Shown: positions 17,487 through 45,364 of the stretch, in pieces
Position numbering within the stretch: the first letter of the stretch is position 1
Layout of the letters: each line of letters begins with the position of its first letter
NCBI GenBank assembly: GCA_916610825.1
Contig: OU744452.1
Span: forward strand, 17,881,103-17,945,102
Source: Haliclystus octoradiatus
Taxonomy: Eukaryota > Cnidaria > Staurozoa > Stauromedusae > Haliclystidae
Direction: 5' to 3'
Length of the DNA stretch: 64,000 bases
Program-made: the position numbers and the translations under genes
The notes under the pieces: generated by a model
What the model was told of the DNA's origin: nothing
The model's input: only the letters and a program-made list of their open reading frames with translations
Databases searched by the model: none

Positions 17487-18500
17487 ATAGAGATGGGATT
17501 AAAAATTACATCAAAAACCAACCTCAAATCAGTATACTTCTTAGACATAACCTTCGACCTAAACAATGGCACATTCCAGCCCTACAGAAAAACTAACGAC
17601 CAACCTATATATATAGACACTAATTCTAATCATCCACCTACAATTCTAAAACATATACCTATAGCAATTAACCAAAGACTCTCCGATTTATCATCTAATA
17701 ACACTATTTATGAAAACAGCAAAAATACTTACGAAGACGCCTTAACAGCGAGTGGCCATACTACTACTAATTTAAAATACGAACCAAGGCCAGCAACATC
17801 AAGCCGTAGAAAAGGGAAAAGGAGGAGAAATGTCACATGGTTTAACCCACCGTTCAACAAAAGTGTGAAAAGCAACATTGGCCGAACATTCCTCAACCTA
17901 GTCAAAAAGCACTTTCCGAAGACAAGCAAGCTACATAAGATTTTCAATCAAAACACGCTAAAAGTAAGTTACAGTTGTACTTCCAATATGAAAACAATCA
18001 TTACTAACCACAACAAGAATTTAACAAATACAGAAATGGAATTAACAGAAAATGCGCAATTATGCAACTGCCGCACAAAGGAAAATTGTCCATTAAACAA
18101 TAGATGCCTTATGGAAGGATTAATCTACAACGCCAAAGTGACTACCCCGGAAGACCAAGAGGGTAAAAATTACATCGGTCTAACGGAAAACTCTTTTAAG
18201 ACACGCTACACACAGCACACAAGCACATTCCGGCATGATAAACATACACACAACACGCAATTATCAAAATATATTTGGGAACAGAAGGACAAAGCAACCG
18301 ACTACAACATCGAATGGACAGCTCTATCGAGAGCAAAGCCATACAATAATATAACGAAAAGATGCCAGCTATGCCTGGCAGAAAAATATCATATCATTTG
18401 TTCCAAAAAAGCATTACTTAACAAAAGATCTGAGTTAATTTCAAAATGTAGGCACGAGAATAAATTTTATTTTACTAATTATAAATCGACTAAAACATAA
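17487..18500 (+). mobile_element. PLE-A, 5'-truncated Penelope-like element (left copy)
   Basis: An open 335-residue frame starts at 17493, just after the reverse-transcriptase catalytic region (compare PLE-B at DIGLNITTKSNL), so RT motifs are absent. It keeps the post-RT domain (NHPPTILKHIPIAINQRLSDLS, WFNPPFNKSVKSNIGRTFLN), a cysteine linker (CNCRTKENCPLNNRC) and a C-terminal GIY-YIG-type endonuclease core (NYIGLTENSFKTRYTQH). It stops at 18498. It cannot move alone. It is the left partner proposed for the recombination that created the large duplication. Confidence 0.85.
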
Positions 18501-18639
18501 CCTGTAACAATTAAATGCTGCATAGGAAACGATCACAAAGAAAACACGCACATTGCGATACAATAGGCTTTATCCCATTTAACAATAGCTGCGATTTATG
18601 TAAGTTTATATCAGAGGTACCATGTATGTTTTTTATTAT

Positions 18640-18786
18640 CTAGTTTTAACTGTCTGATGATCGCAATAAAGCGTGAAACTTCAAGTTACAGTAACAAAAT
18701 GTGTAGTCTTTGACTCCTCTATTTATATTTACAGCTCTGTCAACAGAAGTTGAGCACTGTTTTACTGCTATTGGATAATATTTATT
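18640..18786 (+). repeat. PLE-A terminal repeat with hammerhead-like core
   Basis: Downstream of the PLE-A stop. The core CTGATGA (18654-18660), a stem TCGC/aataaa/GCGT and GAAAC (18675-18679) is followed by TTTGACTCC and a tail GCTCTGTCAA, GAGCACTG, GCTATTGGATA that ends in ATTATT/AATAAT. An inverted partial copy closes the array at 22615-22700. Confidence 0.7.
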
Positions 18787-19119
18787 ATTATTAATAATAA
18801 TAATAATAATAATAATAATAATAATAATAATAATAATAATAATAATAATAATAATAATAATAATAATAATAATAATAATAATAATAATAATAATAATAAT
18901 AATAATAATAATAATAATAATAATAATAATAATAATAATAATAATAATAATAATAATAATAATAATAATAATAATAATAATAATAATAATAATAATAATA
19001 ATAATAATAATAATAATAATAATAATAATAATAATAATAATAATAATAATAATAATAATAATAATAATAATAATAATAATAATAATAATAATAATAATAA
19101 TAATAATAATAATAATAAT
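18787..19119. repeat. (AAT)n microsatellite
   Basis: Begins with a short ATT-to-AAT inversion (TTATTATTAATAAT), then pure AAT. The equivalent tract in unit 2 is shorter (45652-45941). Confidence 0.97.
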
Positions 19120-19312
19120 GGAGTCAAAGACTACGCATTCATTTTCTGTAACTTAAAGTTTCTCGCTTTATGCGATCATCAGACAGATACTATTAATCAC
19201 TTCAATAGTATCAATAGTATTCAATAGTAATCAGATTAATAGTATCTGTCTGATGATCGCATAAAGCGAGAAACTTTAAGTTACAGAAAATGAATGCGTA
19301 GTCTTTGACTCC
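19120..19312. repeat. Perfect palindrome of two PLE terminal repeats
   Basis: Arms 19120-19197 and 19235-19312 are perfect 78-bp reverse complements around a 37-bp AATAGT-rich spacer. Each arm holds CTGATGA-TCGCATAAAGCGA-GAAAC, a fully paired hammerhead-like stem, on opposite strands (19158-19182 minus, 19250-19274 plus), and ends in TTTGACTCC. It has no coding part. It is followed by the usual tail (CTCTGTCAAATGACATCGAGCACTATATC, 19330-19375). Confidence 0.9.
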
Positions 19313-43413: not shown

Positions 43414-44460
43414 GTAGGATCCATCATTCAAGGTAATACTTTTATCTACTTGTGTGAATTGTGATCTATTTTTAATTACCATGTATGAGAGCCTAACTAC
43501 TAATACTACTGACAAAAAAAAACATGAAAATACTGTAAATTTTCATGTTTTTTTAATTACACAAGTAACTTATTACACGGTATAATTTCATTTCCATAAC
43601 GTTTTCATGATTATTTAATGATATTTTCATGTTTTTGGCGTCAACAGTGAAGTAAGTACTTAAGATGGTATCCACGGCTGTAATTACATGCTTCTGACTG
43701 GGGTTATTTGTCAATTTTGTTCTAACAAATGGTGCTGCATTTGGTGTATGTGGGATTGTGAGAACTTTAGTATTTCCTGCGTCCAGGCTAAAACGTTTCT
43801 TAAAGAAAGAGTAAAGTTTGCACTTTCCTTTCACTTTTTCGTCTCAAAATAGCCCCAATAGCGTCCTCTTACCGAAGCGAATTATTAGAGGAGTGGCCCT
43901 GCTCTATGTTGATCCCAGCCGCGACACTTCGGATCAATTTCAACAGATTGCATGGCAGATTGGCCTTGATTATCATTGCGCAATGATGGTAGGCTACACA
44001 GCTACTCACAATCAGGGACAAAAGGTTCAGCCTTCTGGAATCCTCAAGGAATTTCAACATTTACTTCTGAATTTTTTGTTGATGTTTGACCAATAAATCA
44101 TTAAAAACATCAATTTTCTTCTCAATTTGCTCTAACCTTCCGGAACCTAGGAGTCCAGGATTCTTACTTTTGTCGAGACCTACTCACAATACAATTCCCA
44201 CAGGACCATTCGATACGCCATCAGAAGATAGTACTCATATCCAGGGAATTGAACGACAGTCAACCAGATATGATCAGATGTGAATTTTGGTTGCTCTGCC
44301 AATTGAGCTTAGCGTTCATTCTTATCGGTTGCTCACACATTCACTGTTTCACAATAGGCTATAGATCTTTGACAAAATGTGATTGGTAGATATTGATTAG
44401 CATTGATTGATATGTATGTTACGTGTAATTTTGTTCAAGAAGCGAACGTTTTTGTAATTT
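43414..44460. other. Truncated FAHD2 intron 5; no terminal exon found
   Basis: Searched in all frames for GDVILTGTPPG-like sequence and found none. A 92-codon frame at 43818-44096 (HYCAMMVGY, GQKVQPSG) matches no family I know. 43777-43801 is a piece of the fold-back family at 35630. Confidence 0.5.
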
Positions 44461-44742
44461 AATAATAATAATAATAATAATAATAATAATAATAATAATA
44501 ATAATAATAATAATAATAATAATAATAAATAATAATAATAATAATAATAATAATAATAATAATAATAATAATAATAATAATAATAATAATAATAATAATA
44601 ATAATAATAATAATAATAATAATAATAATAATAATAATAATAATAATAATAATAATAATAATAATAATAATAATAATAATAATAATAATAATAATAATAA
44701 TAATAATAATAATAATAATAATAATAATAATAATAATAATAA
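44461..44742. repeat. (AAT)n microsatellite in FAHD2 intron 5
   Basis: AAT repeat with one AAAT slip near 44528; ends 28 bp before the junction PLE-A. Confidence 0.97.
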
Positions 44743-44770
44743 CTTACGAATTATTTACGAATAATTTACG

Positions 44771-45364
44771 AAGCACTTTCCGAAGACAAGCAAGCTACAC
44801 AAGATTTTCAATCAAAACACGCTAAAAGTAAGTTACAGTTGTACTTCCAATATGAAAACAATCATTACTAACCACAACAAGAACTTAACAAATACAGAAA
44901 TGGAAGTAACAGAAAATGCGCAATTATGCAACTGCCGCACAAAGGAAAATTGTCCATTAAACAATAGATGCCTTATGGAAGGATTAATCTACAACGCCAA
45001 AGTGACTACCCCGGAAGACCAAGAGGGTAAAAATTACATCGGTCTAACGGAAAACTCTTTCAAGACACGCTACACACAGCACACAAGCACATTCCGGCAT
45101 GATAAACATACCCACAACACGCAACTATCAAAATATATTTGGGAACAGAAGGACAAAGCCACCGACTACAACATCGAATGGACAGCTCTATCGAGAGCAA
45201 AGCCATACAATAATATAACGAAAAGATGCCAGCTATGCCTGGCAGAAAAATATCATATCATTTGTTCCAAAAAAGCATTACTTAACAAAAGATCTGAGTT
45301 AATTTCAAAATGTAGGCACGAGAATAAATTTTATTTTACTAATTATAAATCGACTAAAACATAA
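44771..45364 (+). mobile_element. PLE-A at the duplication junction (hybrid copy)
   Basis: A truncated PLE-A starting at the KHFPKTSKL codons, with open frame through the cysteine linker and GIY-YIG core to the stop at 45362-45364. Compared with 17907-18500 it has seven substitutions in 44771-45160 (44800, 44884, 44906, 45061, 45112, 45125 and 45160) and none after. Its upstream flank is unrelated to that of the left copy. Confidence 0.9.

Follow-up and report, generated by a model that had tools for sequence, protein, structure and literature searches.

A chimeric, probably Penelope-like element at the junction of a gapless, probably real tandem duplication in the assembly of Haliclystus octoradiatus

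How a stretch of almost 27 kb came to stand twice in tandem in the assembly of Haliclystus octoradiatus, and whether the second copy belongs to the chromosome or only to the assembly, is the question raised by a window of 64,000 bp on contig OU744452.1 (assembly GCA_916610825.1, forward strand, 17,881,103 to 17,945,102). At the junction of the two units lies a copy of PLE-A, likely a Penelope-like element (PLE), and an earlier note, made from the letters alone, proposed that unequal crossing-over between two direct PLE-A copies had produced the duplication. For this analysis the window was joined with 20 kb of its left flank and 60 kb of its right flank, giving 144 kb, and window coordinates are used throughout, up to 124000. 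Genome-wide searches covered the 262-Mb genome in 33 contigs, and the best 40 candidates were scored in each probe search.

Comparison of the window with itself pairs 17907-22618 with 44771-49455 and 22422-37065 with 49357-64000, so that the coordinates first proposed for the duplication, and a unit of about 26.9 kb, were correct (Table 1). Two probes from inside the unit (29000-31000 and 33000-35000) each had exactly two full-length matches in the genome, and probes from the left (11200-13200) and right (80123-82200) outer flanks had one each; these flank searches found no second haplotype of either outer flank elsewhere in the genome.

The left copy of PLE-A (L) and the junction copy (J) share 885 bp (17907-18791 and 44771-45655), and both are bordered by AAT tracts on both sides. 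They differ at seven sites, 17936, 18020, 18042, 18197, 18248, 18261 and 18296, all within the first 390 bp, as the earlier note had observed, and at none in the next 495 bp (Fisher p = 0.003). Outside the AAT tracts, the next substitution between the units after 18296 stands at 26766, preceded by indels in AAT tracts and in a 24-bp repeat. The 5′ flank of J is FAHD2 intron sequence, which agrees with what had been described and differs from the flank of L; on the 3′ side J is followed by unit sequence. That no differences occur in the last 204 of the 594 bp originally compared is by itself too weak an indication to locate the switch between the two sources, and a comparison with other family members at element position 613 and over positions 391-815 was required.

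This comparison used an alignment of 30 PLE-A copies, L and J included, in which the other 28 are the best-scoring among 40 scored of 1,095 candidates. Three of the seven variants (element positions 136, 291 and 355) are private to L and two (positions 114 and 342, where J has C) to J, with 0/28 others carrying them in either case, while positions 30 and 390 are family polymorphisms at which the base of J occurs in 20/28 and 24/28 others, respectively. We had considered the seven variants as marks of a single donor and rejected this, as they are a mixture of these three classes. Since J has two private variants and lacks the three that are private to L, its 5′ part is an ordinary, independently inserted family member with private changes of its own rather than a mutated L. 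Over positions 391-815, J equals L exactly, as none of the 28 others does; these have 1-6 substitutions relative to L (mean 3.25). Position 613 (18519 in L, 45383 in J) is T in both copies and C (27) or A (1) in the others, and because this T is common to L and J and is found in 0/28 others, the switch lies inside the element, between 18297 and 18518. The interval that had been left running from 18297 to the next informative site is thereby closed. An in-register chimeric repeat at the tandem junction is expected of non-allelic homologous recombination (NAHR) mediated by transposable elements, and here it is present.

The two units are not evenly similar. From 18297 to 37691 they differ by 9 substitutions in 19,152 aligned bases (~0.05%), which agrees with the divergence of about 0.06 percent first given for the window, but this figure fails beyond 37.7 kb, where we counted 9/1,043 over 37692-38725 and 46/4,597 over 38726-44459 (the unit 2 side of both ranges lies beyond the window edge), in total 55/5,640 or ~1%. 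The step from 9/19,152 to 55/5,640 has p ~1e-26; these counts exclude most of 39594-40124 and 41682-42260, which are local tandem repeats, and most AAT tracts. In the 2.2 kb before the terminal AAT tracts the units differ at 14/2,174 positions, and the left edges of the tracts differ too. In addition, unit 2 carries an insertion of 7,647 bp (65661-73307), which has terminal inverted repeats of 108 bp (94%) and a 9-bp target-site duplication, CATTGTGCG, and for which unit 1 has a clean empty site at 38717-38725. Nested in this insertion is another element, which has a 1,924-codon open frame and direct repeats of 366 bp that are identical to each other. The divergence step, together with an insertion that has its empty site in unit 1, points to two haplotypes.

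The right end of unit 2 was only partly as predicted. The earlier note expected an (AAT)n tract there, followed by a PLE-A carrying the seven variants; the tract is present (79147-80114, 968 bp) and abuts the FAHD2 flank directly, but no further PLE-A copy was found across 45656-124000, and so none follows unit 2. A crossover between two PLE-A copies of a single chromosome should have left a third PLE-A, and the similarity of the units should be even throughout; neither was found. What stands of the original proposal is the in-register chimera of two independent insertions; its simple one-chromosome form does not, and we amend it by a second haplotype.

We put the probability at roughly 0.7 that the duplication is real and was made by exchange between PLE-A copies with two haplotypes involved, and a real duplication, in whatever form, seems to us somewhat more probable than that. 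On this reading, two direct PLE-A copies would have inserted independently into (AAT)n tracts, one at 17.5 kb and the other, at the unit's right end, in the FAHD2 intron, and recent NAHR between them would have produced the tandem duplication, with the crossover falling within 222 bp of the element and leaving the chimeric copy at the junction. The two haplotypes may have come in at the exchange itself, between homologues, or afterwards, by an ordinary crossover near 37.7/64.6 kb. The donor chromosome of the right part of unit 2 would have had no PLE-A in the FAHD2 intron and would have carried the 7.6-kb transposon insertion. Both the missing third copy and the divergence step are explained if a haplotype that never had this PLE-A supplied the right part of unit 2. 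The letters themselves show that the assembly contains the duplication, the chimeric element with its exchange interval, and the divergence step, and that the third PLE-A is absent; the correctness of the assembly at this place, the sequence of events and the two parental haplotypes are inferred from them.

Several points weigh against this reading. Repeat copies are expected at both outer ends of a duplication made by NAHR between transposable elements, and the left one is present while the right one is absent, which fits NAHR only if the right-hand haplotype lacked PLE-A; the absence thus forces an extra haplotype into the model. The right edge of the exchange interval depends on a single site, position 613, and the set against which private variants were called holds only the best-scoring copies. 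At the 5′ edge of J, moreover, stands a 28-bp sequence that is unexplained and has no other occurrence in the sequence examined with up to 5 mismatches allowed. Lastly, an assembly artefact would explain the divergence step, the insertion in one unit and the missing third PLE-A together. Here two haplotypes would have been assembled in tandem, with the right PLE-A of haplotype A, in the FAHD2 intron, joined to the left PLE-A of haplotype B, which lacks the intronic copy. The earlier note had named tandem assembly of haplotypes as its alternative, and it predicts the same asymmetry that we see, but we judge it unlikely. According to passages of PMC9516828, heterotype false duplications are far commoner than homotype ones and tied to heterozygosity, and some are joined gaplessly through wrong gap filling; in the same passages, however, gaps between the copies are a main mark of false duplications, and the joined 144 kb contain 0 N. 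The artefact would also have to join the haplotypes in register within 222 bp of a ~0.9-kb repeat, which we infer to be much shorter than the reads must have been, given that AAT tracts of up to 968 bp were resolved. That no second flank haplotype turned up elsewhere agrees with a collapsed or purged assembly and speaks for neither side.

The other explanations that we weighed are far less probable. If the exchange took place between sister chromatids or identical chromosomes carrying both PLE-As, the third PLE-A must have been lost by recombination between the AAT tracts that flanked it, and later conversion or insertion must account for the divergence in the right part of unit 2. In favour of this, L and J each have AAT tracts on both sides, and the tract that closes unit 2 exceeds in length all others listed in the 144 kb, as would be expected had two tracts merged; the right ends of the units differ, however, in the left edges of their tracts and in the 2.2 kb before them, which points to another haplotype and makes a deletion unnecessary, so that we consider this course of events quite improbable. 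The 28 bp that separate the tract from PLE-A are not AAT sequence and could be filler DNA left by a non-homologous or replicative template switch from the FAHD2 tract to the left PLE-A, after which another PLE would have converted the 5′ part of J. This explanation needs a second, unrelated event for the two variants private to J, which none of the 28 other copies has, and retrotransposition alone could plausibly yield a 5′-truncated insertion with some additional bases, which leaves the template switch slightly more improbable still. Retrotransposition of host genes framed by Penelope repeats has a precedent in an intron-containing gene of Adineta vaga, in the part of PMC3846280 that describes it, but the copy here is tandem, 27-35 kb long, includes other repeats and has an in-register chimera as its junction, and we give this origin next to no credence.

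Table 1. Coordinates of the duplicated units, the PLE copies and the genes between them (window coordinates)
Feature	Position	Strand	Remarks
Unit 1 of the tandem duplication	17907..44770		26,864 bp
Unit 2	44771..64000 in the window, onward to 80114		35,344 bp in total, owing to the 7,647-bp insertion
Left PLE-A (L), probably a 5′-truncated Penelope-like element	17479..18791	+	Open frame 17487-18500; between (AAT)n 16835-17478 and 18792-19119
Exchange interval	18297..18518 in L, 45161-45382 in J	+	222 bp; from the last differing site (18296) to the first L-private site shared by J (18519)
Hammerhead-type ribozyme motif in the PLE-A 3′ region	18641..18708	+	Repeated letter for letter at 45505-45572; score under the Rfam curated cut-off
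PLE-B, second, longer PLE (probable)	20081..21994	-	Open frame of 637 aa that contains motif residues of RT and GIY-YIG; no difference between the units
CATSPERB-like gene	24166..37651	-	PF15149 in open frames 24166-24735 and 25594-27255; unit 2 copy at +26935
FAHD2-like gene, copy 1	38103..43414	+	Exons matching PF01557 positions 1-55, 75-131 and 130-167
(AAT)n tract in the FAHD2 intron	44460..44742	+	Presumed target of the PLE-A whose 5′ part survives in J
28-bp non-AAT sequence	44743..44770	+	From the AAT tract to the PLE-A 5′ truncation point
Junction PLE-A (J), chimeric	44771..45655	+	5′ part from an independent insertion, 3′ part that of the left copy

PLE-A has a strong preference for microsatellite targets in the 28 other copies examined. 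In 24/28 of them a tract of 15 bp or more, AAT in 13 and ATT in 11, starts at element position 770-900, the 3′ end, and in the remaining 4/28 there is none; at the density of such tracts in the window, which is itself rich in them (14 in 64 kb), the chance expectation is ~3% for the 131-bp interval tested. The occurrence of tracts in both orientations suggests that the tract is the target and not a part of the element. With 24 of 28 copies at such tracts, it is no surprise to find two direct copies, each at an AAT tract, within 27 kb of each other. A preference of Penelope endonucleases for AT-rich sites is described in passages of PMC11167929 and PMC3846280, the former also reporting a preference for cleavage at ATT. 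Directly 3′ of the unit 2 tract, at 80115-80308, lies a dispersed repeat, 86-97% identical over ~186 bp among the copies listed, which adjoins the AAT tract and may be a source of AAT tracts.

The assignment of PLE-A and PLE-B to the Penelope-like elements is likely, judged by their residues and relatives. PLE-A retains only the C-terminal 337 aa, and neither element has a Pfam match to reverse transcriptase (RT) or GIY-YIG domains; among the 29 aligned family members scanned, 0 had such a match with E values up to 0.1 allowed, and a search of the family profile against PDB sequences gave no RT or GIY-YIG chain. PLE-A is 45% identical over 335 aa to a protein of Solemya velum, and this relative scores with GIY-YIG PF01541 (1e-5, 26.2 bits against a cut-off of 22.6). 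The alignment for PLE-B has an invariant YRDD, which we take to be motif C, and Y229, G231, R240 and H244 (PLE-A numbering) are also invariant, presumably as residues of the GIY-YIG type. The 3′ region of PLE-A matches Hammerhead_HH9, with a CUGAUGA and GAAAC core, at 21.7 bits where the gathering score is 52 (E values of 0.1 over 8 kb and 0.002 over 161 bp), and the model was also found at E<1 in 5/8 other loci searched, which are not independent. Hammerheads are reported from PLEs in passages of PMC11167929. PLE-B ends in 423-bp inverted repeats (19824-20246 and 21936-22358) that are 99.5% identical.

The duplication takes in one gene and most of another. The CATSPERB-like gene, named after a sperm ion-channel subunit, probably extends to an N-terminal exon at 37133-37651, and five open frames of the stretch compared are open in both units, with three amino-acid differences between the units, one of which falls on the first residue of a frame and may be noncoding. 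No homologues of a CATSPERB-like open frame used as query were found at E <= 0.001. An older partial copy (82%) of its C-terminal region (24325-25167) is present to the left of unit 1, at 4111-4911. The name of the FAHD2-like gene, which encodes a metabolic enzyme, is supported by its best match, an annotated fahd2 with 52% identity; its first exon and the three exons that match PF01557 have uninterrupted frames in each unit and show two amino-acid differences altogether. The exon for PF01557 positions 167-194 occurs once, after unit 2 at ~80870, so that the first copy lacks its 3′ end and its last intron continues into the junction PLE-A. In the assembly, the CATSPERB-like gene is duplicated and the extra FAHD2 copy is without its 3′ end, so that the earlier idea of a PLE driving gene duplication holds for the former and was too broad for the latter. 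Farther left, a 1,393-codon open frame with RT, RNase H and integrase domains occupies 6886-11067 on the minus strand.

If the duplication is real, the locus is a base-level example of homologous recombination that had a Penelope-like element as its substrate and duplicated a gene of the host. The missing outer element would then show how such events escape notice, as the signature of a repeat at every boundary fails when an insertion is heterozygous. As an artefact, the locus would still serve as a useful warning, since a gapless in-register chimera would pass a gap-based check. It is tempting, though rather doubtful at present, to generalize that a PLE inserting in (AAT)n microsatellites keeps depositing direct, near-identical copies tens of kb apart, and that exchange between insertion-heterozygous homologues then produces gene duplications with an element-free far end; the present locus would be one allele made by this PLE/microsatellite duplication engine, with its 222-bp exchange interval preserved.

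Recombination between transposon copies is a known mechanism, and what this locus offers is a well-resolved instance with a rarely documented substrate. Penelope copies in Drosophila virilis are associated with chromosome rearrangements and lie at inversion breakpoints; these are inversions and not duplications. No tandem duplication by exchange between Penelope copies appeared among the literature matches listed, which comprised open-licence papers only. A Schistosoma review that names Penelope and duplication by recombination was considered as a precedent and set aside, as the statement in question is a general one that does not concern Penelope copies. False heterotype duplications, in the passages of PMC9516828 that treat them, likewise show adjacent copies, allelic-type divergence and asymmetric insertions, but the present locus has no gap and its breakpoint lies in register within a short dispersed repeat. 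Penelope elements are likewise associated with the copying of an intron-containing host gene in Adineta vaga, although the account in PMC3846280 is one of retrotransposition in trans with target-site duplications, whereas here resident copies would have recombined. Also comparable are the Galileo inversions (PMC2775673) and DAIBAM in the virilis group (PMC6278893), in which two copies of the same element likewise recombine and leave the element at the breakpoints; those are inversions made by other transposons, and here the product is a tandem duplication and the substrate probably a Penelope-like retroelement.

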